Assembly: GCF_030246865.1 (NCBI RefSeq)
Contig: NZ_CP126738.1
Coordinates: 3,038,001 to 3,102,000 of the forward strand
Length of the DNA stretch: 64,000 nucleotides
Source: Microbacterium sp. zg-B96
GTDB taxonomy: Bacteria; Actinomycetota; Actinomycetes; Actinomycetales; Microbacteriaceae
Reading direction: 5' to 3'
Positions within the stretch are counted from its first letter, which is position 1; the number at the start of each line of letters is the position of its first letter. Both the position numbers and the translations under genes were made by a program. Positions 22,872-36,067 of the stretch are shown here, in pieces. The notes under the pieces were generated by a model. That model made no database searches and was not told where the DNA came from. It saw nothing but the letters and a program-made list of their open reading frames with translations.

Positions 22872-25110
<2,239 letters not shown>

Positions 25111-25112
<2 letters not shown>

Positions 25113-25190
25113 TACTCACTCGGCAGCGGCAATACTCACTCGGCAGCGCGAATACTCACTCGGCAGCAGCAATACTCACTCGGGGGCGGT
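25111..25190. repeat. 20-bp direct repeat array 1 (4 copies)
   Basis: Four head-to-tail units AATACTCACTCGGCAGCRRC begin at 25111, 25131, 25151 and 25171, an exact 20-bp period. The core GAATACTCACTCG is conserved and the rest varies slightly. The array lies between convergent genes and overlaps both ends: the dehydrogenase stop codon and the last codons of the LacI gene. The same repeat occurs at 34421-34549 and 35145-35220, and nowhere else I can see in the window. Confidence 0.95.
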
Positions 25191-26229
25191 GGCCGGTTGT
25201 GGAGCCTCGGCGCACCAGTTGCGGTTCCACGACGACACGCTGGTGCAGGTGCCCCGCGGGATCGGCGATCTCCTCGAGCAGCAGCGACATCGCCGCCAGT
25301 CCCAGCCGCTCCCCCTGCATCGCAACCGTCGTGAGCGAGACCGCAGCGACGGATGCCGTCGTGTTGTGGTCGCACCCCATCACCGCCATCTCCCGCGGCA
25401 CGTCGATCCCCTGCCGGGTCATCTCGGTGATGAATCCGGCGGCGAGCGTGTCGGTCACGGCGACGACGCCGTTGGGCCGGGTGTCCGGACCGCGGGCCGC
25501 GATACGCGCGGCAGCGGCCACGCCGCTGGCCTCGGTGAGGTCGGCGGCGTGCAGTTCCTCGAACCGCACCCGCCCTTGCGTCTCGCGCACCGCGCGGCGC
25601 AGCCCTTCGCGCCGCAGGGCCACCGGCTGCAGCGACGGATCGGTGCCGCCGACGAACAGCAGCCGGTCACAGCCTTCTTCGATGAGATGCCGACCGGCGA
25701 GGAAGCCGACCTGCTCGTTGTCGACGACGACGCAGCAGTCGTCCCCGGGGCCCGGGTCGTAGTTGACCAGAACCACGGGGCATCCGCGCTTGCGCAGCTT
25801 CTGGATCTGCGCGGAGGAGTCGCGCATCGGCGCCAGCAGGAGTCCCGCCACCCGCGCCTCGTCGAAGAAATCCACGTTCGCCGCCTGCAGTTGGAAGTCG
25901 TCCTGACTGCCGGCCAGCAGCAGATTCAGGCCCCGCGCCCGCGCCGTCTGCTGCGCCCCGAGCGCCACATCCACGAACATCGAGTTGGCCAGATCGATCA
26001 CGACCAGTCCGATGCTGCGGGAGCCGCCGGCGGCCAGCGAACTGGCGTTCGCGTCGCGCACGAACCCCAGCGCCTCGATCGACGCGCGCACCCGCTCCAG
26101 CGTCTTCGCACTCACCTTGTCGGGGTGATTGAGCACGTGCGACACCGTGCCCATCGACACCCCCGCGTGCCGCGCAACATCACGCAGTTTGGGGGGCGCA
26201 TCCGACTCAGGTGACACGCGACTGTTCAT
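25156..26229 (-). CDS. LacI family transcriptional regulator
   Basis: A 357-residue LacI-type regulator. Residues about 12-60 contain the helix-turn-helix and hinge (LRDVARHAGVSMGTVSHVLNHPDKVSAKTLERV). The rest is the periplasmic-binding-like sugar domain (SIGLVVIDLANSMFVDVALGAQQ, GLLLAPMRDS, GVVAVTDTLAAGFI). It is the last gene after the sugar transporter genes (25 bp gap). Two identical TGAAGCGATTCA palindromes in the 29.5-29.7 kb promoter region are its probable operators. The C-terminal RVSIAAAE is encoded by the repeat array, so the natural end was probably altered. Confidence 0.93.
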   Translation of the reverse strand: MNSRVSPESDAPPKLRDVARHAGVSMGTVSHVLNHPDKVSAKTLERVRASIEALGFVRDANASSLAAGGSRSIGLVVIDLANSMFVDVALGAQQTARARGLNLLLAGSQDDFQLQAANVDFFDEARVAGLLLAPMRDSSAQIQKLRKRGCPVVLVNYDPGPGDDCCVVVDNEQVGFLAGRHLIEEGCDRLLFVGGTDPSLQPVALRREGLRRAVRETQGRVRFEELHAADLTEASGVAAAARIAARGPDTRPNGVVAVTDTLAAGFITEMTRQGIDVPREMAVMGCDHNTTASVAAVSLTTVAMQGERLGLAAMSLLLEEIADPAGHLHQRVVVEPQLVRRGSTTGHRPRVSIAAAE

Positions 26230-26254
26230 CTCGATGTCACCGTAGCGCAGGCGG

Positions 26255-27139
26255 TCACCCCTTGATCGCGCCGGAGGTCATGCCGGCGACGATCTGCCGG
26301 TTGAAGAAGATGAACATGATCAGCGGCGGGATCGTGATCAGCAGGACGTCCATGAACAGGAGGTTCCACTGGTTCAGGCCCTGCGACTGGTAGTTGTACA
26401 GCGTCAGCTGCACGGTGGCGTTGTCCATCCCGGGCAGGAAGTACAGCGCATACGTGAAGTCGTTGAAGACGGTGACCGCCTGCACCACGATGACCGTCAC
26501 GATCACCGAACGCAGCAGCGGGAAGATCACCTGGAAGAACAGGCGGATGGGCCCTGCGCCGTCGATGAGGGCAGCCTCGTCCAGTTCACGCGGGATCGAG
26601 CCGACGAACGCCTTGAACAGCATGATGCAGAACGACAGACCGAATGCCACGTGCACCGCGATGAGGCCGGTGAGCGACCCGTACAGACCGGTGCCCTGCA
26701 GCACCCAGATGGTCGGCACGACCGCCGGCGGGATGATGAGCCCGGCCAGCACGAGGAAATTGATCAGGCCGTTCCAGCGCGACTTGCGCCGCTGCAGCAC
26801 GTAGCCGACCATCGCGGAGAGGACCACCATGATCACCACGGCGACGATCGTGAGGATCGTGCTGTTGATGAACGCGCGGATCAGGATGAAGTCGTTGGTC
26901 TCCACGACCGTCGTGAGGTTCTCGAAGAACGCCCACTGAGTGGGCCAGGAGAACTGCAGCAAGGATGCCTCTTGCTGCGTCTTGCTGGCGGTCAGGATGA
27001 TGAACGCGAACGGCACCAGGAAGACCACGGCGGCCAGCGCGATCGAGACACTGCCGAGGACGACGCCCTTCTTCTTCACGCGGGTCTTCTCGCCCGACGT
27101 CTCGCGGGTCTTCACGCGGGGCTTCTCAGTGGTCGTCAC
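26255..27139 (-). CDS. Sugar ABC transporter permease (MalG-like)
   Basis: A 294-residue permease with six predicted helices. It has an N-terminal lysine/arginine-rich cytoplasmic tail, then LGSVSIALAAVVFLVPFAFIILTA, and the EAA loop ELDEAALIDGAGPIRLFFQVIFPLLR near residue 195. It ends FNRQIVAGMTSGAIKG, the usual CUT1 family terminus. The GTG start at 27139 overlaps the stop of the partner permease by 4 bases. Imports an oligosaccharide or glycoside together with 27136-28065 and the lipoprotein at 28127. No ATPase gene is present; CUT1 systems often share one encoded elsewhere. Confidence 0.93.
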   Translation of the reverse strand: MTTTEKPRVKTRETSGEKTRVKKKGVVLGSVSIALAAVVFLVPFAFIILTASKTQQEASLLQFSWPTQWAFFENLTTVVETNDFILIRAFINSTILTIVAVVIMVVLSAMVGYVLQRRKSRWNGLINFLVLAGLIIPPAVVPTIWVLQGTGLYGSLTGLIAVHVAFGLSFCIMLFKAFVGSIPRELDEAALIDGAGPIRLFFQVIFPLLRSVIVTVIVVQAVTVFNDFTYALYFLPGMDNATVQLTLYNYQSQGLNQWNLLFMDVLLITIPPLIMFIFFNRQIVAGMTSGAIKG

Positions 27140-28065
27140 GATTCGCTGCCTTTGCGGTTGAGCCAGTACGAGAGCGGCAGGATGATGGCCGCCACGACGA
27201 GGAAGAGCACGACGTTGCCGGCGGTGGACAGCCCGAAGAAGCCGGCCTGGTACTGCTTGTAGATGACGGAGGCGATCACGTCGCTGGTGAAGCCGGGCCC
27301 GCCGCCGGTCATCGACCAGATGAGGTCGAAGGAGCGGAGCCCTCCGATGAGGGACAGGATGACCACGGTCACCGTCGCGGGGCGCGCCAGCGGCAGGATG
27401 ATGAACCGGAAGTTGTGCCACGCCGATGCGCCGTCGACCTTGGCCGCTTCGAAGTACTCCTGCGGGATGGCGACGATGCCGGCGATGTAGATGAGGGTGG
27501 CAAGACCCACGCCCTTCCACACGTCCACGAACGCGACCGTGTACAGCGCGAGGTTCGGGTCGGTGAGCCAACCGGGGCCGGCGATGCCGACCATTCCCAG
27601 CAGCTGGTTGACCATGCCGTCGAACGGGTCCAGCAGCACGGTGAAGGTGACGCCGATGCCGACGGTGCTCACCAGCACGGGGAAGAAGACCACCGAGCGC
27701 AGGAACCCGCGGGCGATGATCTGCGAGGTCAGCAGGATCGCCAGCATCAGGCCGAGCACGACCTTGGCCGCCGAGGTGAGGAAGGCGTAGATGAAGGTGT
27801 TGGTGAACCCTCGCACGAGGGCGGGTTCACGGAAGAACTGCACGAAGTTGTCGAGTCCGATGAACTCGACGTCGAACAGGGTCCAGCGCGTCAGCGAGAA
27901 GTAGAAGGATGCCGCGGTGGGGATGATGAACAGGACGAGGAAGAACACCCCTGCCGGAATGTGGAACCACAGCGGATACGGACTTGTGCCGCGCCGGCGC
28001 TGCGAGCGCTGCGGGCGCTCGGTCTTGAGGTCTCGGCGTTTGGGGGCGAGTGTCGCGGTTGTCAT
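27136..28065 (-). CDS. Sugar ABC transporter permease (MalF-like)
   Basis: A 309-residue permease with six helices: PLWFHIPAGVFFLVLFIIPTAASFYFSLTRW at the N-terminus and the EAA loop YFEAAKVDGASAWHNFRFIILPL near residue 215, then GGLRSFDLIWSMTGGGPG, a CUT1 signature. Start ATG with GGAGGAG 8 bases upstream. It heterodimerises with the downstream permease. A 9-bp hairpin separates it from the binding-protein gene. Confidence 0.93.
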   Translation of the reverse strand: MTTATLAPKRRDLKTERPQRSQRRRGTSPYPLWFHIPAGVFFLVLFIIPTAASFYFSLTRWTLFDVEFIGLDNFVQFFREPALVRGFTNTFIYAFLTSAAKVVLGLMLAILLTSQIIARGFLRSVVFFPVLVSTVGIGVTFTVLLDPFDGMVNQLLGMVGIAGPGWLTDPNLALYTVAFVDVWKGVGLATLIYIAGIVAIPQEYFEAAKVDGASAWHNFRFIILPLARPATVTVVILSLIGGLRSFDLIWSMTGGGPGFTSDVIASVIYKQYQAGFFGLSTAGNVVLFLVVAAIILPLSYWLNRKGSES

Positions 28066-28080
28066 CTGTTCTCCTCCGAC

Positions 28081-28112
28081 GTGACGGGGCCGACTCTCGC
28101 CGACCCCGTCAC
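28081..28112 (-). promoter_or_regulatory. Intercistronic stem-loop after the binding-protein gene
   Basis: On the minus strand GTGACGGGG-T-CG ... CG-G-CCCCGTCAC, a 9-bp perfect stem extended by 2 bp. It lies between the stop of the sugar-binding protein gene and the permease ribosome-binding site. Such hairpins usually stabilise the binding-protein message or partly terminate it, giving more binding protein than permease. Confidence 0.65.
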
Positions 28113-28126
28113 GCGTTCGCGGATTG

Positions 28127-29431
28127 TTACCAGTCCAGGCCGAGCTGCTGCGCCTGCTTGACCACGTCCTGGTCGTAGAGCGCGGCGCCGTCATCGGCGG
28201 AGCGGATGCCCGAACCCACCTCGACGGTGATCTGCTCGAGCGAGGGGCCCTTGATCGCGGAGAGGAACTCCAGCGCCAGGCTGGTGCGTCCCTCGTCGAA
28301 GTACGCCTGCATGTCGTGCACGAGCGCCGGAGCGTTATCGGGCAGTTCGCAGCCGGCGACGACGAACGGGCCGCCGAGCGTGGTGGAATCCGCCTGGATG
28401 GCGCAGCTCTCGGGCGTGGCCAGCCACGTCAGGAACTCCTTGGTCGCCTCGAGCTGCTCGCCCTCGGTGGTCTTGGGGACGTAGACGCCGTTGGGCATCC
28501 ACACCGTCAGACCGTTGCTGGCGGAGTCGGCACCGGGGATCGGGAATACACCGATCGACGCGTCGGCGTCGGGGTAGTTCGCCCCGAGCGCTTCGGCGAC
28601 GTTTCCGGTGAGCATCGGGTAGTGCGCGGCTTCGCCCTCGGCGAGCATCCGCACGGCGTCGTCATACGTCGCCGATGCGAAGTCCTCGTTGAGCACGCCC
28701 GCGTCGTGGATGTCCTGCAGGTGCTGGAAGCCCGCGACGGCGGGTTCGTCGACGAACTTCGCCTCACCTGCGGTGTACTCGTCGGCCCAGTCGGGGTTGT
28801 CTGCGGTCACGTTGAAGAAGTCACCCAGGACGGGAACCTGTGAGGTCCACGCGTCGCCGAAGCTCTGCACGACACCCACGAGCCCGGCGTCCGTGACGGC
28901 CTCGGCGTTGGCCATGAACTCATCCCACGTGGTCGGGACCTCAAGGCCCAGCTCCGCGTAGATGTCCTTGTTGTAGACCATCGCGCCGGCGAACGAAGCG
29001 CCGACGGGAACACCGTAGAGGCCCTCCTCGGTCGACACTGCCTGCACGAAGTTGTCGTCGAGGTCGGCTGCCCATTCCTCGTCGCTCAGCGAGACCAGCT
29101 GCTTGTCCGGTCCCAGCGCCATCAGCAGCGAGCCGGAGTTGTACCAGAACATGTCGTTCATGTCGCCGGTGGACAGGCGGGTCTTGATCAGGTTGTCGCC
29201 TTCACCGCCGGCCGGGTGCGTCTCGACCTCGATCGTAACGTCGGGGTTGACCTCTGCGTAACCGGCAACGAGGCCGTCCCACAGAGCGATGGACGAAGGG
29301 TTGCTGTCGATGTAGATGGACAGTTCACCGCCGTCCGCGGCGTCTCCACCACCCGAGCATCCGGCCAGCGCCAGCGCGCCGACCACCCCAACGGCTCCCA
29401 GCGCCAGACGACGCGGCTGAGCATTTCCCAC
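28127..29431 (-). CDS. Sugar ABC transporter substrate-binding lipoprotein
   Basis: A 434-residue family 1 solute-binding protein. The signal peptide RRLALGAVGVVGALALAGC ends in a lipobox, so the protein is anchored outside the membrane. The mature protein shows ELSIYIDSNPSSIALWDGLVAGYAEVNPDVTIEVE, the LVSLSDEEWAADL hinge region and NGVYVPKTTEGEQLEATKEFLTWLATPE. GTG start with GGAGG 7 bases before. First gene of the transporter/LacI operon, divergent from the rhamnosidase genes. Ligand is probably a rhamnose-containing glycoside, inferred from that link. Confidence 0.92.
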   Translation of the reverse strand: MGNAQPRRLALGAVGVVGALALAGCSGGGDAADGGELSIYIDSNPSSIALWDGLVAGYAEVNPDVTIEVETHPAGGEGDNLIKTRLSTGDMNDMFWYNSGSLLMALGPDKQLVSLSDEEWAADLDDNFVQAVSTEEGLYGVPVGASFAGAMVYNKDIYAELGLEVPTTWDEFMANAEAVTDAGLVGVVQSFGDAWTSQVPVLGDFFNVTADNPDWADEYTAGEAKFVDEPAVAGFQHLQDIHDAGVLNEDFASATYDDAVRMLAEGEAAHYPMLTGNVAEALGANYPDADASIGVFPIPGADSASNGLTVWMPNGVYVPKTTEGEQLEATKEFLTWLATPESCAIQADSTTLGGPFVVAGCELPDNAPALVHDMQAYFDEGRTSLALEFLSAIKGPSLEQITVEVGSGIRSADDGAALYDQDVVKQAQQLGLDW

Positions 29432-29480
29432 GGTTTACCTCCCTGTAGACCCTCGTCGCCGTCCTCGGCTGACGATATTT

Positions 29481-29492
29481 TGAAGCGATTCA
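29481..29492. promoter_or_regulatory. LacI-type operator, transporter side
   Basis: TGAAGCGATTCA, a palindrome (TGAA..CG..TTCA) with the central CG step typical of LacI-family sites. It lies just downstream of the TACATT -10 of the minus-strand promoter, where a repressor would block initiation. Confidence 0.8.
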
Positions 29493-29661
29493 CTTCCCTG
29501 CGAATGTAAGTCGCGGTAGGGCCGGTGTCAAGCGTCTGGCGCCGGTTCGGCGCGTTTCGACCCGTATTGGCGGCAAACAACCGGACAAAACGGATGCCGT
29601 GCGTCACCATCGGACCTTGACGCCGGTTCAACCGCCGCCGTATGGTCAACGAAGCCGTATA

Positions 29662-29673
29662 TGAAGCGATTCA
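29662..29673. promoter_or_regulatory. LacI-type operator, rhamnosidase side
   Basis: A second TGAAGCGATTCA, identical to that at 29481-29492 (centres 181 bp apart) and just downstream of the plus-strand -10. Both operons are therefore probably repressed by the LacI protein at 25156-26229 until inducer appears. Confidence 0.8.
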
Positions 29674-29704
29674 TTCGTGAGTCCGATCCGCCGAGAGGAA
29701 GACG

Positions 29705-32377
29705 ATGACCGTCTTGCCCCCCACCCACCAGTCGACGACGCAGACGCGGATCCGCCACCTGGGTTCCCAGTTCGACCAGCGCCTGCAGGCCCTCCCGCCC
29801 GAGGCCATCCGCCTGCGCTGGAGCGCCGAGTCCGACCTGCCCGGTGCCGCCCAGTCCGGCTACCAGGTGCGGATGCGCCGTGACGGCGGCGAATGGATCA
29901 CCTCCGAGCCGGTCGCCTGCACGGCCGCGATCGACATCCCCGACGACGCACCGCCGCTGGCCCCGCGCGAGGTGCGCGAGTACGGCGTGCGCCTGGCCAC
30001 CGCCGAGGGCTGGACGCCGTGGAGCGACACGCTCAGCGTGGAAGGCGCGCTGACCGCAGCGGAGCTGACCGCCCAGGTGATCGACATCGACAGCGAGACG
30101 GAAGGGCCGGTGCCGGTGTTCCGGCGGGAGTTCTCGCTGACCGCCGCGCCGCAGCGCGCGCGCCTGTACATCTCCGCCCTCGGGGTCTACGAGGTGCGCA
30201 TCAACGGGCAGCGCGCGACCGACGGCATCCTGAACCCGGGGTGGACCTCCTACCAGGAGCGCATTCTGCTGGACACCCTCGATGTGGCCCCGTTCCTGCG
30301 CGCCGGCGACAACGCGATCGAGATCACCGTCGCCGACGGCTGGTACCGCGGCCGCATGGGCTTCGCCGAGCGCCGGGAGATCTACGGCGACCGGATCGGC
30401 CCCATCGCGCAGCTGGAGACGACGGATGCCGACGGCAACCTCACCACCCTGGTGACCGACCCGACCTGGCGCGGCGGCTATGGCGCGGTGCGCTCGGCGA
30501 GCATCTATGACGGCACCGTCACCGACCTCGACGGCGCGGTGGACGCCTCGGTCCCCGGTTTCGCCGACGAGCAGTGGCAGCCGGCGCGGGTCGTGCCGGT
30601 CGATCGAGAACTGTTCATCCCCCGCCCGGTCATCCCGGTGCGGGAGGTGCAGGCGCTGCCGATGTCGATCCGCGCCCGCGACGGTGCGATCGCGCTGGAT
30701 GGGCAGCAGAACATCTCCGGCTGGGTGCGCCTGGAAGTGGAAGGCGCCCGCGGGGCCACCGTGACGGTGCGCCATGCCGAAGTGCTCGAGCCCGACGGCG
30801 CCCTGCACACTGCGGCGCTGCGCACCGCGAAGGCCACCGACACCTACACGCTCGACCGCGACGGTCGCCACCTGCTGGAGCCGATGTTCACGTTCCACGG
30901 CTTCCGCTACGCCGAGGTCACCGGCGACGTACAGGTGCTGTCGGCTACCGCCGTCGCCATCTCCAGCGACCTGCTCCCCCGCTCGCAGTTCGACAGTTCC
31001 CACACCGCGTTGAACCGCTTCCACGACAACGTGCTGTGGTCGCAGCGGGACAACTTCGTCTCCCTCCCCACCGACTGCCCGCAGCGCGATGAGCGCCTGG
31101 GCTGGACCGGCGACGCGCAGGCGTTCGCCGCGACGGCGAACACGCTGTTCGACAGCGAGTCCTTCTGGGCGTCCTGGCTGCGCGACCTCGAGGTCGAGCA
31201 GGACGACGACGGCGCCGTGGCATCCATCGTCCCCAACATCATCCGCCCCCAGGATCTGATGATGGGCGGTGGGCCGGTCGAGTCGATGGGCCGTGCCGGC
31301 TGGGCGGATGCCGCCACCATCGTGCCGATGGCCAGCTACACCGCCTTCGGCACCACCGATGCCCTGCGCGCCCAGCTGGGCAGCATGCGGCGGTGGGTGG
31401 ACCACCTCCGCCGCCGGGCGGGCGCCGACGTGCTCCTCCCCGACGAGCCGTTCCAGTACGGCGACTGGCTCGACCCGGACGCTCCCGGCGACCGGCCCTG
31501 GCAGGCCAAGACGCCGCCGCTGTTCGTGGCGAACTGCTTCTATGTCCATTCCGCCGCACTGCTCGCCCGCGCCGAGACGATCCTCGGCGAGGAGGGTGCC
31601 GCGGAGCACCGTGAGTTGGCGGACCGCGTGTCCGAGGCGGTATGGCAGACGTGGCGGGATGAGGCGATGCGCACCCAGACGGGAGCTGCGATGTGCCTGG
31701 AGTTCGGCATCGTTCCCGATGCCGAACGTGCTGCTCTTGCCGATGCCCTCGCCGAGAACGTGCGCACCGAGAAGGGGAGGATCGCCACCGGCTTCCTCGG
31801 GACGCCGCTCGTGCTGGACGCCCTCACCCGCAACGGCCACCTCACCGAGGCCTACCGGATGCTGCTGCGTCGCGAGGCGCCGTCCTGGCTGTACCAGGTG
31901 GACCGGGGAGCCACGACGGTCTGGGAGCGCTGGGATGCGATCAAGCCCGATGGCTCGATCCACAGCGGCGCGATGGATTCCAAGGAGGGGGACAGCATGA
32001 TCTCCTTCAACCACTACGCCTACGGCGCCGTCATCGACTGGGTGTACCGCACCGTCGGCGGCCTCGCCCCGATCGAGCCGGGCTACCGTGCCGTGCGCAT
32101 CGCCCCGCGCCCCGCGGAGAGCCTGCGTCACGCCCGGGCACGCGTGGAGACCCACTACGGCCCGGTCGAGATCGACTGGACCCTGGGCGAGGACGACACC
32201 TTCACGGCGGACCTCACGGTGCCCTTCGGTGTCCGCGCCGACCTGGATCTGCCCGCCACCGCCGCCTCGACGGTGACGGTCGACGGCGCCCCGGCGCCGG
32301 CGTCACTCACCCACGGCCGCTACCGGCTGGTCGTCACCGCCGCGGCGGTCGTGCCGAGCGACGCGGCGAGGTCGTGA
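29705..32377 (+). CDS. Alpha-L-rhamnosidase, glycoside hydrolase family 78
   Basis: An 890-residue GH78 enzyme that removes terminal alpha-L-rhamnose by inversion. An N-terminal fibronectin-like domain (to about residue 115) is followed by beta-sandwich domains (RLYISALGVYEVRINGQ, ISGWVRLEVEG). The (alpha/alpha)6 barrel contains DCPQRDERLGWTGDAQAF at about residues 456-473 with the presumed acid Glu, and TTVWERWDAI near residue 740 with the presumed base. A C-terminal beta domain ends the protein. No signal peptide, so it acts on imported glycosides in the cytoplasm. GAGGAAG precedes the ATG. Confidence 0.95.
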   Translation: MTVLPPTHQSTTQTRIRHLGSQFDQRLQALPPEAIRLRWSAESDLPGAAQSGYQVRMRRDGGEWITSEPVACTAAIDIPDDAPPLAPREVREYGVRLATAEGWTPWSDTLSVEGALTAAELTAQVIDIDSETEGPVPVFRREFSLTAAPQRARLYISALGVYEVRINGQRATDGILNPGWTSYQERILLDTLDVAPFLRAGDNAIEITVADGWYRGRMGFAERREIYGDRIGPIAQLETTDADGNLTTLVTDPTWRGGYGAVRSASIYDGTVTDLDGAVDASVPGFADEQWQPARVVPVDRELFIPRPVIPVREVQALPMSIRARDGAIALDGQQNISGWVRLEVEGARGATVTVRHAEVLEPDGALHTAALRTAKATDTYTLDRDGRHLLEPMFTFHGFRYAEVTGDVQVLSATAVAISSDLLPRSQFDSSHTALNRFHDNVLWSQRDNFVSLPTDCPQRDERLGWTGDAQAFAATANTLFDSESFWASWLRDLEVEQDDDGAVASIVPNIIRPQDLMMGGGPVESMGRAGWADAATIVPMASYTAFGTTDALRAQLGSMRRWVDHLRRRAGADVLLPDEPFQYGDWLDPDAPGDRPWQAKTPPLFVANCFYVHSAALLARAETILGEEGAAEHRELADRVSEAVWQTWRDEAMRTQTGAAMCLEFGIVPDAERAALADALAENVRTEKGRIATGFLGTPLVLDALTRNGHLTEAYRMLLRREAPSWLYQVDRGATTVWERWDAIKPDGSIHSGAMDSKEGDSMISFNHYAYGAVIDWVYRTVGGLAPIEPGYRAVRIAPRPAESLRHARARVETHYGPVEIDWTLGEDDTFTADLTVPFGVRADLDLPATAASTVTVDGAPAPASLTHGRYRLVVTAAAVVPSDAARS

Positions 32378-34446
32378 CGGCTGCACACCGCATCGAAGCG
32401 CCGCCGGTGTGGGAGCGGGAGGAGCTGATCCTCCGCTCCCGCGCCAGCGGGGCCGACACCCTGCCGGATCGGCTGCCCACGGCATCCGGTCGGGCGTGGT
32501 TCTACCCGCGCGGCCAGTACGAGGCGGGCGCGCTGCTGCGCGTGATCGGCGAGGGGCGGCGCGCCATCCGGCACGTCGACTACGCCGAGAACGTCGGCGG
32601 CACCTCCCCCTCCGGGATGTTCCGAGCGACGGTTCCCGCCGCGGGTGCGCAGGTCGCGGCCGGGTTCGCGGCGGCGTTCACCGTGCTCACCACAGGGGAC
32701 GCGATCGTCCGCGCGGACGGCGTGACGATCCCCCTCCCGCGCGGCCCCGTCCTCTCGGTCCCGCGGCTGGCGGCGGGGACCGTGCTGGAGATCGTCGTGC
32801 TGACTCCCGACGAAGCAGTGCCGCCGGCGGCGGCGCTGCCCGCGGCCGGCTGGCACTGGGAGACGTCGCTCGACGGCGTCGCCTGGGAGAGCGTCGCTCC
32901 CCGCGACGGTGACGAGGTCCCCCCGCACGAACGCGGCGAACCGACGGTGCAGATCGCGCTGACTGCGGCATCCGATTCGTCGTACGCTCTTCCTGCCCCG
33001 GTGCTCGGCCGGGTGCAGATCGTCGCGGCGCAGCGCCCGGTGCTCACGACGGGCGAGTCCGAGGCCGAAGCCGCCGCCGGAGCGGATGCCGCGGAGAGCC
33101 GGTGCGACCTCACCGAGACCGCCCCGGGGGTCTACCTCACCGACCACGCGATCGGGTTCCGCTACGCCTCGATCACCGGCGTCGTCCCCGAGTCCGTCAT
33201 GGTGCACGCCAGCATCCGTCCGGCGCCGCGGCGCGGGGCCTTCCTCACCGACGATGAGACGCTGAACACGATCTGGGCCACGAGCGCCTACACGCTGCGG
33301 TTGTGCATGCAGACGGTGCTGCTGGACGGCATCAAACGCGACCGGATGCCGTGGATGGGCGACCACGCCCTCGGCGTGCTGACCAACGCCGCCGCGTTCG
33401 CCGACCCCGAGATCATCCGCACCACGCTGCGCGGGCTCGGCCGGCCGCGCGACGGGTTTGTCAACGGCATCTCGGACTACTCGCTGTGGTGGGTGATCTC
33501 GCACGGGCTGTACCAGCGGTATTTCGGTGATACGGAGTTCGCGCGCACCGAGGCGGAGCACCTTCACGCGTTCCTGACGGAGCTGGCGACGTTCGCCGAT
33601 GCCGATGGGCTGTTCCGGCCCCGTCGCGTCGCGGGGTCGTTCCCGCACGCCGGGCCCGGCGCGGTGTTCCTGGACTGGGGGGTGCAGTTCCGCGCCGACG
33701 GCGTGCCGACCGCGATCCAGATCCTCTGGTTCTGGGCGCTGAGCTCGGCCGGATCGGTGCTCGCGGTGGCGGAACACCCGGAGGCTGCCCGCTGGACGGC
33801 GGCGGCTGCGGCCGTGCGCGCGCAGCTGGTCGCGCGGGCGTGGCATCCGCAGTCCGGGCTGTGGAGCGAGTATCTCGACGATCCGGAGTGCTCCAGCGCT
33901 TACCCGAACTTCCTCGCGGTGCTCGCGGGGCTGAAACTGACCCCCGGCGCGGACGCGGTGCAGCTTGTGTCCCGCTCGTCGGCGGGGACGCCGTTCATGC
34001 GCGCGTTCGCGCTGATGGCGCTGGGGCGCACGGGCGAACGGGTCGCCGCGGTCGCGGAGGTGCGGCGGCTGTGGTCAGGGATGCTGGATGCCGGCGCGAC
34101 GACGTTCTGGGAGGACTTTGGCGGCGACGGGTCCGACCTGGAGATGTACGGGCGGCCGTTCGGCAAGAGCCTGTGTCACGCCTGGTCGGCGGGGCCGGCG
34201 GCGCTGCTGCCCGAGCTCGTGCTCGGCATCCGTCCGGTGACCGACGGGTGGCGCCGGTTCACCGTCGATCCGCGTCTGGGTGCCCTGCAGTGGGCCGCGG
34301 CGGTGACCCCGACACCGTTCGGCGACGTGGTCGTGGACGCGCGTCCCGACCGGCTGCAGGTCGAGGTCCCTGCCGGGACGACGCTCGTGCACGGCGCCGC
34401 CGAATACCCCGGCCCCGCCCGAGTGAGTATTCGGGCCCGCGAGTGA
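32374..34446 (+). CDS. Second GH78-type (alpha-L-rhamnosidase-related) glycoside hydrolase
   Basis: A 690-residue protein whose GTG start overlaps the first rhamnosidase stop (GTGA). N-terminal beta domains to about residue 280 are followed by a helical barrel: TLRLCMQTVLLDGIKRDRMP then WMGDHALGV (near residue 320), FVNGISDYSLWWV, and TTFWEDFGGDGSDLEMYG near residue 577, then SLCHAWSAGPAALLPELVLGI. These match GH78 catalytic landmarks, but the family DERLGWTGD is KRDRMPWMGD here, so the acid residue is replaced or shifted. The last residues RVSIRARE and the stop codon come from repeat array 2. No signal peptide. Probably acts on a different rhamnoside linkage. Confidence 0.85.
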   Translation: MTAAHRIEAPPVWEREELILRSRASGADTLPDRLPTASGRAWFYPRGQYEAGALLRVIGEGRRAIRHVDYAENVGGTSPSGMFRATVPAAGAQVAAGFAAAFTVLTTGDAIVRADGVTIPLPRGPVLSVPRLAAGTVLEIVVLTPDEAVPPAAALPAAGWHWETSLDGVAWESVAPRDGDEVPPHERGEPTVQIALTAASDSSYALPAPVLGRVQIVAAQRPVLTTGESEAEAAAGADAAESRCDLTETAPGVYLTDHAIGFRYASITGVVPESVMVHASIRPAPRRGAFLTDDETLNTIWATSAYTLRLCMQTVLLDGIKRDRMPWMGDHALGVLTNAAAFADPEIIRTTLRGLGRPRDGFVNGISDYSLWWVISHGLYQRYFGDTEFARTEAEHLHAFLTELATFADADGLFRPRRVAGSFPHAGPGAVFLDWGVQFRADGVPTAIQILWFWALSSAGSVLAVAEHPEAARWTAAAAAVRAQLVARAWHPQSGLWSEYLDDPECSSAYPNFLAVLAGLKLTPGADAVQLVSRSSAGTPFMRAFALMALGRTGERVAAVAEVRRLWSGMLDAGATTFWEDFGGDGSDLEMYGRPFGKSLCHAWSAGPAALLPELVLGIRPVTDGWRRFTVDPRLGALQWAAAVTPTPFGDVVVDARPDRLQVEVPAGTTLVHGAAEYPGPARVSIRARE

Positions 34447-34549
34447 GTATTCGTCGCCTCGAGTGAGTATTCGTCGCGGCGAGTGAGTATTCGAGCCCTC
34501 GAGTGAGTACTCGTGCGAATACTCACTCGGCAGCACGAATACTCACTCG
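34421..34549. repeat. 20-bp repeat array 2 (5 direct plus 2 inverted copies)
   Basis: Five units of GAGTGAGTATTCG plus 7 variable bases start at 34421, 34441, 34461, 34481 and 34501. Two copies in the opposite orientation (GAATACTCACTCG) start at 34517 and 34537. The switch creates the inverted repeat GAGTGAGTA ... TACTCACTC at about 34501-34528, which could fold as a terminator. The first copies encode the C-terminus and stop of the preceding glycosidase. Confidence 0.95.
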
Positions 34550-34567
34550 GCGGCCTACCCTGGGGGC

Positions 34568-34702
34568 ATGAGCCAGGAACGTGAGCCACAGAACGACGCG
34601 CCGCTGGGCGGCGACGAGGGAACCGAAGAGCAGCTCGAGGCCGACAACCCGGCTGAGGAGCAAACGCTGAAGACCCTCGACCCCGACAGCCCGCCGGCCT
34701 GA
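34568..34702 (+). CDS. Small acidic hypothetical protein (44 aa)
   Basis: Reads MSQEREPQNDAPLGGDEGTE and continues EQLEADNPAEEQTLKTLDPDSPPA. It is highly acidic, has no hydrophobic segment and is probably disordered. A weak GGGGG precedes the ATG and a good terminator follows the stop, which supports a real short gene. The normal codon-position GC pattern also fits. No function can be assigned. Confidence 0.65.
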   Translation: MSQEREPQNDAPLGGDEGTEEQLEADNPAEEQTLKTLDPDSPPA

Positions 34703-34707
34703 CGCGA

Positions 34708-34742
34708 CAAGACCCAGCCGGAACAGGTCCGGCCGGGTCTTG
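34708..34742 (+). terminator. Rho-independent-type hairpin after the small gene
   Basis: CAAGACCC-A-GCCGGA, loop ACAGG, TCCGGC-C-GGGTCTTG: 14 paired bases with one mismatch. It follows the 44-codon gene by 5 bases and also faces the rhaS-like remnant on the other strand. Confidence 0.8.
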
Positions 34743-34756
34743 TACTGCGGCGACCT

Positions 34757-34990
34757 TTAGAAGTCGGAGTCGCCGATGTCGTCCGCGGTGAACACGAACG
34801 GGTCGCCCAGCAGCACCGTGCCGTCGGCGCCAACCTCGAACGAGCCGAGCTTGCCGACTTCGAACGTATCGCCCTCTTCGCCGGTGATCTCCTCCGTGAT
34901 GAGCGCCTGCGCCGCCCACGCGGCGAGGTAGCCGAGGTCGGCCGGGTTCAACGACGAGTTCGATGTCGGGGTGGTTCGCGCGCCCGCCGG
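34757..34990 (-). pseudogene. 3' remnant of a RhaS-like rhamnose ABC transporter binding protein
   Basis: The minus strand encodes LNPADLGYLAAWAAQALITE, EITGEEGDTFEVGKLGSF and VGADGTVLLGDPFVFTADD up to a stop at 34757. This is the conserved C-terminal end (about 64 residues) of the RhaS family of rhamnose-binding proteins. Just upstream, in another frame, ANHPDIELV resembles an internal piece of the same family, so a deletion and frameshift are likely. No start codon, signal peptide or N-terminal lobe remains. A 135-codon open frame through this region is therefore an accident of decay. It suggests that a rhamnose uptake locus once adjoined the rhamnosidases. Confidence 0.7.
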
Positions 34991-35058
34991 AGCTGATCGT
35001 GCGGGCCTCGACCGCTGCGCACTGGCCCGCGCCCGCCGGCATCCGTCTGCCCACCTCT

Positions 35059-35115
35059 CGGACACAGGAGAACTCCCGGAAACAGGACGATTCCGGCCAA
35101 AACGTCCTGTCCCGG
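35059..35115. repeat. Structured intergenic element related to 38875-38910
   Basis: Contains CGGACACAGGAGAACTCCCG and GGAAACAGGACG, with an 8-bp inverted repeat ACAGGACG (35082-35089) and CGTCCTGT (35103-35110). A similar CTCTCCGACACAGGAGTGTC sequence occurs at about 38878-38897 before another operon. Function unknown; possibly a small interspersed repeat. Confidence 0.45.
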
Positions 35116-35144
35116 TGATTCTTCCTGTATGCGTGAGACGCCGC

Positions 35145-35220
35145 GAGTACTCACTCGACGCCACGAATACTCACTCGACGCCGCGAATACTCACTCGGCA
35201 GCGTGAATACTCACTCGGCG
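35145..35220. repeat. 20-bp repeat array 3 (4 copies)
   Basis: Copies of GARTACTCACTCGRCRGC begin at 35145 (variant GAGTACTCACTCG), 35165, 35185 and 35205, again with an exact 20-bp period. The array ends two bases before the stop codon of the transglutaminase gene at 35222. Same family as arrays at 25111 and 34421. Confidence 0.95.
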
Positions 35221-35221
35221 G

Positions 35222-36067
35222 CTAGGCCTCGCGGGTGATCGTCACCTTCACGTGCAGGTCGCTCTTGAACGTGCCGGCGTACACGCCGCGCAGCGGCGGG
35301 ACGTCGTTGTAGTCGCGGCCTCGCCCGACGAGCACGTGTCGCTCGCCGATCTCGGTGTTGTTCGTGGGGTCGAACCCGTGCCAATCGCCCGCGAACCACT
35401 CCACCCAGGCATGCGACTCGCCGACGACGGCGACCCCCACCTCGGCTTCGGGATCCGGATGCAGGTAGCCCGAGACATAGCGGGCAGGGATGCCGACCTC
35501 GCGCAGTGCCCCCAGCGTGATGTGGGCCATGTCCTGACAGACACCGCTGCGCTGCTCCCACGCCTCGGCGGCGGTGGACTGCACGCCGGTGGACCCGTAC
35601 ATGTACTCGACGGTGTCGCCGATCGCCACCGCGATCGCCAGCGCCGCCTGACCGGGGTTGTCGTGCTGCGCCGCGATCATGCGGGCGAGTTCGGCGACCT
35701 CGGGGTGCGCGGCGGTGCGCGGCGACTGTGCAAGCATCTCGACGGTCGAGATCGAGCGCTGGGCCTCGCCACGGAGATCTTCCCACGAGATCTCGGGGTG
35801 CTCCAGCGGCCGGGGCCGCACCTCCACAAGCGACCGGGCGGTGATGCCCAGCGCGGTGTGCCCGGACAGCACATCGAAGGATGCCACGCGGGTGCCGAAG
35901 TAGTCGACGTACTGGTTCACGCTGGAGGAGGGCTCGATGTCGAGCGATGAGCTCAGCACGAACTGGTTCTCGGTCGAAACCGGAAGCATGCGCGCTTCGT
36001 TATACGACGCCGACACGTCACCCGGGTACGTGAAGCCGGTGGCATGTTCGATCCGCAGGCGCATCAT
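35222..36067 (-). CDS. Transglutaminase-like cysteine protease family protein
   Basis: A 281-residue protein with an N-terminal beta domain (LRIEHATGFTYPGDVSASYNEARM) and a transglutaminase core: the Cys in WEQRSGVCQDMAHITLGALREVGIPARYVSGYLH, His in VGESHAWVEWFAGDWHGFDPTNN and the following Asp complete the triad. Such proteins are encoded with circularly permuted ATP-grasp and alpha-E proteins and are thought to cleave or form amide bonds in a peptide product. Last gene of that operon; its ATG overlaps the alpha-E stop by 4 bases. Cytoplasmic, no signal peptide. Confidence 0.92.
   Translation of the reverse strand: MMRLRIEHATGFTYPGDVSASYNEARMLPVSTENQFVLSSSLDIEPSSSVNQYVDYFGTRVASFDVLSGHTALGITARSLVEVRPRPLEHPEISWEDLRGEAQRSISTVEMLAQSPRTAAHPEVAELARMIAAQHDNPGQAALAIAVAIGDTVEYMYGSTGVQSTAAEAWEQRSGVCQDMAHITLGALREVGIPARYVSGYLHPDPEAEVGVAVVGESHAWVEWFAGDWHGFDPTNNTEIGERHVLVGRGRDYNDVPPLRGVYAGTFKSDLHVKVTITREA

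Follow-up and report, generated by a model that had tools for sequence, protein, structure and literature searches.

Oriented 20-bp repeat arrays at gene borders in Microbacterium sp. zg-B96 and its sisters as candidate polar boundaries of transcription units

Why does a short repeat stand in regular rows beside a sugar-utilisation module in Microbacterium sp. zg-B96? The question arises from a stretch of 64,000 nucleotides (NZ_CP126738.1, positions 3,038,001 to 3,102,000), hereafter the window, where a 13-bp core, GAATACTCACTCG, recurs every 20 bp. The original prediction described fifteen copies in three arrays, lying in both orientations and only at the two borders of a 10-kb rhamnoside module. 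We find that these arrays belong to a family of oriented arrays that is dispersed over the chromosome and placed at gene borders. Tentatively, we read them as rows of binding sites for a putative sequence-specific factor, which would form a polar, protein-bound boundary of transcription units.

The window contains 15 copies of the core with at most one mismatch (10 exact and five with one), in both orientations. In 100 dinucleotide shuffles of the window, copies with up to two mismatches had a mean of 0.62 and a maximum of three. The copy number, orientations and 20-bp period first described were confirmed, but the arrays number four, with 20-bp steps within each (Table 1). The locus at 34420 is a pair, and its plus-strand set (34517) is out of the 20-bp register with its minus-strand set. 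Confinement to the module borders did not hold. The array at 35145 lies about 600 bp past the module, and the exact 13-mer occurs 208 times in the genome (96 on the plus strand, 112 on the minus strand), with no match to a control pattern.

The genome of the window, named G000 here, has a chromosome of 3.41 Mb, on which the window is G000:C1:3038001-3102000. Its sisters are G118, G031, G025 and G294. The core TACTCACTCG occurs in G000 as 172 pairs at 20-bp distance, and the control gave none. We sampled 943,839 bases of this genome (28%), covering 165 of the 172 tandem pairs; the other seven lie outside. With detection based on at least one exact core, the sample contains 71 arrays of two to eight copies and no single copies. 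The period is exactly 20 bp in 193 of 195 intervals. When the sampled arrays of G118 (part of its arrays), G031 and G025 are added, it is found in 373 of 380.

Each repeat unit consists of the 13-bp core and a 7-bp spacer. The G000 spacers follow the pattern RSRSCRY, with T rare; their base counts come from units with TACTCA, so that core positions 4 to 9 are fixed there by selection of the units. Spacer identity is 67% within an array and 49% between arrays. We took the direction of GAATACTCACTCG as the arrow of each array. The copy far from the gene pointed at is often GAGTACTC-like: first copies are exact in 44 of 69 tabulated arrays, and last copies in 59 of 71. The motif GATGCC/GGCATC is present in 21 of the 71 far-side 40-bp flanks. 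Among controls, it is present in 138 of 1480 array-free intergenic 40-mers and in 46 of 329 array-free convergent ones.

Regular repeats split by variable pieces, with one end copy often off consensus, resemble clustered regularly interspaced short palindromic repeats (CRISPR). However, CRISPR spacers measure about 25-40 bp between repeats of 24-48 bp. Here the core has 13 bp, the 7-bp spacers recur within an array, and there are about 70 arrays per genome. We rejected this identity, as the original prediction had done, although cas genes were not searched for.

The arrays sit at gene borders in 68 of 71 cases according to our gene caller, and in 70 after two corrections by eye. The remaining one lies inside a gene. 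The caller is home-made; it missed the acyl-CoA dehydrogenase gene ending at 25112, and it placed genes on the wrong strand at arrays 541776 and 615606 (judged by eye). Most arrows (51/71) aim at a gene end. In 47 of these cases the array is placed between -27 and +21 bp relative to the stop codon, and 22 arrays contain the stop itself, in the nearest copy (17) or in the next (5). The other 20 arrows aim at a gene start, 17 of them at a distance of 12-124 bp, and in several of these 17 a TAnnnT box was seen by eye between array and start. Two of the last three are caller errors, and by eye they point at gene ends. A typical array, then, begins no more than about 20 bp from a stop codon, which it often provides, or it sits upstream of a start. 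Fifteen pairs have less than 150 bp between their arrays, and every one points outward; together with 41 solitary arrays, they make 56 array sites. In a 685-kb stretch of G000 chosen independently of arrays, these occupy 8 of 110 convergent junctions, 11 of 411 tandem ones and 3 of 109 divergent ones, with one intragenic array assigned to the nearest junction.

The genes beside the arrays are of many kinds. Their Pfam domains include PheT, GatB, NDK, RecQ-type helicase and the IMPDH family, and 18 of 19 scanned array-adjacent proteins elsewhere in the genome match mixed Pfam families (one matches none). We therefore discarded a pathway operator or regulon. The arrays had been proposed to border the rhamnoside module, but what they mark, all over the genome, is the edges of genes. 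Arrays flank many units, which is why they also flank the module, and the link between the two is accidental. Searching the genome and its relatives, as originally advised, gave the gene-border link described above and arrays at common sites in four relatives. The two outcomes named as refuting, a random spread unrelated to gene ends and absence from every relative, are thus both contradicted.

We favour the polar boundary because the arrays lie at the edges of transcription units and pair outward. The putative factor would line up head-to-tail on the DNA, one 13-bp core per 20 bp, that is, about every two helical turns. The arrow would aim at the unit, with the row standing either directly after its stop codon or ahead of its start. 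A bound row would then halt RNA polymerase leaving the unit on that side, whether as 3' read-through or, at the 5' end, as antisense transcription directed outward. Cooperativity, barrier function and the factor itself are inferred. Two suggestions of the original prediction, a cooperative binding site on one face of the DNA and a transcription border, are compatible with the arrays.

In known polar terminator arrays, such as TTF-I at Sal boxes and Tus-Ter, an oriented DNA-bound protein stops the polymerase from one side. The present arrays would act in a similar way, but they form about 70 sites dispersed over a bacterial chromosome, and their factor is putative. A second likeness is BldC, a cooperative head-to-tail actinobacterial protein that also occupies directional direct-repeat rows of variable length. 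At the promoters of its targets, each subunit of BldC recognises 9 bp, AATTXXXX(C) (PMC5859096). Unlike these operators, the arrays have a 20-bp period and border unrelated genes. An operator of the 9-bp BldC type was rejected on the near-constant 20-bp period and on the core itself.

Core and spacers differ in their conservation. We measured every unit between two exact cores, whatever its look, which removes the selection bias. In G000 (104 units), the core mismatch is 1.6% per site, mostly at positions 1 and 3, against a spacer difference of 28% within arrays. The corresponding values are 2.3% and 29% in G118 (53 units), and 3.6% and 44% in G031 (15 units). Spacer identity is 0.644 between orthologous arrays and 0.580 between unrelated ones of equal size (64 pairs, after exclusion of two of 66 without spacers; p = 0.001).

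The arrays are limited to few genomes. The two-copy pattern was found in five of 295 genomes of the genus: besides G000, in G118 (234), G031 (44), G025 (19) and G294 (3), with no control matches. A looser CTCACTCG pair is present in the same five (179 in G000, 246 in G118, 50 in G031, 31 in G025 and four in G294); its reversed control gave six matches in G025, two in G000 and one each in G159 and G209. In a collection of 84,980 species, which may omit genomes very near that of the window, the three-copy pattern matched only Microbacterium pullorum Sa4CUA7. A tree of joined genes places the five array genomes in one clade (support 100) against G081 and G084; its inner order is unresolved. At the pheT end, three of 30 genomes have an array (G000, G118 and G031), and 27, including G025, have none within 130 bases.

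By a strict count, 66 of 90 sister arrays have a G000 array at the same junction and in the same orientation, on 48 G000 arrays. These are 35 of 41 in G031, 10 of 13 in G025, 20 of 35 in G118 and the single one in G294. Of the 15 unmatched G118 arrays, 12 have flanks outside the sampled G000 DNA, two face only an opposite array and one faces none. Inside the 685-kb stretch, sharing amounts to 16 of 19 (G031), 6 of 8 (G025) and 1 of 1 (G294). The flanking DNA of shared sites is mostly 80-92% identical between species, and 16 of 66 orthologous pairs have the same number of copies.

Decay is visible in one sister. Gene ends with an array in G000 keep the core at three or fewer mismatches in 7 of 19 cases in G294, including its one intact array, against 0 of 63 controls. 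A 20-bp-spaced pair with at most eight mismatches in 26 is present at 5 of the 19, the best control having 10. This G294 DNA was chosen by expected synteny, except for the piece with its one array. The same test in G025 gave 12 of 19 against 1 of 52 controls, a biased result, given that the DNA was mostly chosen for holding arrays. The simplest account is that the arrays are ancestral to the clade and that G000, G118 and G031 kept them, whereas they changed in G025 and mostly decayed in G294. The reverse history, in which short degenerate ancestors expanded later, is possible. Near-fixed cores beside drifting spacers at old shared sites imply that the core is recognised. The comparison suggests a sequence-specific recognition, which some species have probably retained and one has mostly lost.

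A bolder form of the proposal is an insulator specific to the clade and acting over the whole chromosome. A putative lineage-specific protein would polymerise on the oriented arrays as a one-way barrier to RNA polymerase, and this arrangement would be decaying in one sister. We consider this version unlikely. To our knowledge, bacteria offer hardly any example of a dedicated polar transcription barrier or insulator. If the arrays are one, the clade offers a natural experiment, where the same borders carry intact, altered and decayed arrays in related species.

A serious rival, almost as likely as the polar boundary, is that the arrays are functionless. They would be a selfish interspersed repeat with the ecology of repetitive extragenic palindromic (REP) elements, multiplied by copying and tandem duplication and surviving only where genes suffer no harm, at stop codons and upstream of promoters, with a core uniform through youth or homogenisation. 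It is a doubtful explanation, but it accounts for several results. The arrays occupy insertion-tolerant places, and the copy numbers of orthologous arrays are mostly unequal. The likeness of spacers within arrays implies that units duplicate. One array (G000:C1:3239562) lies in frame inside an AMP-ligase-like gene and codes for the peptides RILTR, EYSLG and ANTHS. The linker that holds it in G000 is shorter and array-free in G031, G222 and G084. In this single case, the alignment against the array-free relatives shows no clear target-site duplication of the kind left by a transposon or MITE.

Identical spacers common to different arrays also seemed to favour copying, with 153 cases against a column-shuffle mean of 75 (one G000 array with broken units omitted). 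Nevertheless, this excess disappeared under a second-order Markov null (mean 196, p = 0.85), and copying between arrays was rejected. The functionless repeat has further difficulties. Many sites are old, judging by their flanks, yet cores are near-fixed while spacers of the same array differ by 28-44%, which disfavours both young copies and homogenisation of whole units. Single copies, which G031 does have, are absent from the sampled G000 DNA. The lack of a Y1 (RAYT-type) transposase, described below, also speaks against it.

The REP elements themselves are a close comparison. They are described as numerous per genome, intergenic, mostly downstream of genes, associated with same-direction or convergent genes, and single, paired or clustered (PMC3733652). 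The arrays resemble REPs, bacterial interspersed mosaic elements (BIMEs) and REPINs in being dispersed, intergenic and mainly downstream of genes, and this occupation of the same kinds of place speaks for the functionless repeat. Binding sites for gyrase, Pol I or IHF have been described in BIMEs and REPs, which also help Rho-dependent termination (PMC2817692). Compared with REPs and REPINs, the arrays are same-direction direct repeats of fixed 20-bp period and 13-bp core, and their close pairs point outward only. No palindromic body is required, although the 15 close pairs do form inverted repeats.

The array unit has no GTAG/CGTC tag. The transposase associated with such elements, RAYT (Y1/IS200-like, PF01797), was found in none of 10 genomes (five with arrays and five others), while 5 of 14 control genomes were positive. 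We rejected a RAYT/REPIN origin on these two results and on the solitary arrays, 38 of 41 of which have no inverted partner better than chance. If the arrays are mere repeats, they form an interspersed family without a required palindrome or RAYT, whose core stays near-fixed while its spacers drift. No description of the repeat was found in the literature, judged by the titles listed and with most subscription journals outside the search.

Several points weigh against the polar boundary itself. That an array points at a unit is partly automatic, as there is always a neighbour ahead of the arrow, and a lone array filling a convergent junction is near both stops. At least one array, that at 3239562, is a recent gain, as expected of a spreading repeat, and tandem copying alone could maintain the 20-bp period. 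The spacers are not free: T is rare, the pattern RSRSCRY holds, and orthologous spacers are slightly more alike than unrelated ones. Detection needs an exact core, so strongly decayed G000 arrays are uncounted. G031 has three single copies among its 41 arrays, and two G118 arrays face only an opposite array at the G000 site. No candidate gene for the factor was found, and no genome-wide search for a gene specific to array genomes was made.

The arrays could also work as RNA. The gene-sense strand, CGAGUGAGUAUUC, would then act in the 3' untranslated region as a terminator, an mRNA stabiliser or a protein-binding site, and the outward pairs would act as bidirectional terminator hairpins. Most arrays come after a stop codon in one sense. 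On both strands, the fold of the pair in the window is far more stable than that of shuffles (z -8.7 and -9.2). Among the four strands of the two single arrays of the window, one also folds better (z -3.6; the others gave 1.7, -1.1 and -0.7). The sequence GAGUAUUC can pair with itself when G-U pairs are counted. At the ndk site, G025 has a perfect inverted pair with a variant core. Inverted CGAGTGAG/CTCACTCG pairs are present in 41 of 295 genomes of the genus, and a control pattern in two.

The folding of the arrays was compared with that of 60 permuted cores, in 66 of the 71 arrays (five omitted for broken units). The gene-sense strand folds better in 64 of 66, and only 4 of 60 permutations match this asymmetry, which counts in favour of an RNA element. 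However, 14 of 60 reach or exceed the stability of the real arrays on the gene-sense strand, and therefore no special RNA structure is shown. Other results also stand against an RNA element. No close partner accompanies 41 of the 56 array sites, and in 38 of these 41 no inverted core within 120 bp exceeds chance expectation (the exceptions are 667463, 1095501 and 3073148). The core is near-fixed and does not covary. Several arrays lie between divergent genes, where they would be outside the transcript of the gene they point at. No run of four T follows in the 40 bp beyond any of the 71 arrays. An intrinsic terminator was rejected on this absence and on the permuted cores, yet the 15 outward pairs can form hairpins. 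Rfam gave seven matches with E up to 1 and below the gathering score, including miRNA precursor models on the inverted pair; we took them as chance. The rigid two-turn spacing, the same-direction copies and the sites between divergent genes lead us to prefer a row of DNA-bound protein, and we judge an RNA element improbable.

Recombination borders, also raised by the original prediction, are the least probable explanation, and we give them very little credit. Here gene blocks between arrays would be exchanged, and the arrays would promote it. Synteny is broken at 10 of 24 array junctions and at 14 of 101 of all other junctions (p = 0.004; junctions with neither gene matched were excluded). The region of the module seems to agree. 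The 38.5 kb between the G000 arrays 3033885 and 3072420, including the sugar module and positions 1-34420 of the window (its left half), are replaced in G031 by one gene, which lies between the matching arrays (G031:C1:2852805-2853875), so gene content differs there. Conversely, 14 of the 24 array junctions are syntenic and the counts are small. When only non-operonic junctions are compared, breaks affect 10 of 24 with arrays and 12 of 51 others (p = 0.17). The effect of being at a border therefore suffices, and the candidate was dropped.

The features of the window are collected in Table 1. The TACCCT hexamer beside the 34420 pair is a putative promoter element, by its likeness to a -10 box.

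Table 1. Arrays of the window and the genes and motif that adjoin them (window positions).
Feature	Position	Strand	Remarks
Array, 4 copies	25110..25182	+	Convergent junction; first bases are the TAA stop of the plus-strand gene; TGA stop of the minus-strand gene inside
Array, 5 copies	34420..34512	-	Second copy holds the TGA stop of the rhamnosidase-like plus-strand gene
Array, 2 copies	34517..34549	+	Pairs outward with the 34420 array; the small plus-strand gene follows 18 bp downstream
Array, 4 copies	35145..35217	+	Ends 4 bp from the stop codon of the minus-strand transglutaminase-like gene
TACCCT, -10-like (TANNNT)	34556..34561	+	Between the plus-strand array and the ATG of the small gene at 34568; seen by eye
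Acyl-CoA dehydrogenase gene	23940..25112	+	PF00441, PF02771, PF02770; stop overlaps the first array
LacI-family regulator	25156..26229	-	Last codons and stop are array sequence; ends RVSIAAAE
Rhamnosidase-like glycosidase	32407..34446	+	PF17389, PF17390; protein ends in RVSIRARE; array sequence supplies the last codons and the stop
Small protein gene, 44 aa	34568..34702 (genome 3072568-3072702)	+	From the gene caller; downstream of the plus-strand array of the pair
Transglutaminase-like gene	35222..36067	-	PF08379, PF01841; last array abuts

Other dispersed repeats appeared in the genus during these searches. Inverted repeats of 30 bp, similar to CGAGTGAGCANNNNATNNNNTGCTCACTCG, are present in G253 (at least six places), G284, G035 and G238, among the matches listed. 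They share the CGAGTGAG/CTCACTCG ends of the arrays, and they are perhaps a related hairpin family of other species. A second dispersed inverted repeat of about 37 bp, similar to CGAGTGAGACAC...GTGTCTCACTCG, has 13 copies in G083, and similar ones are present in G016, G072, G166 and G233. Downstream of pheT, where three genomes of the clade have arrays, G045 and G011 carry another inverted repeated element with GTTTCGTCTCG.

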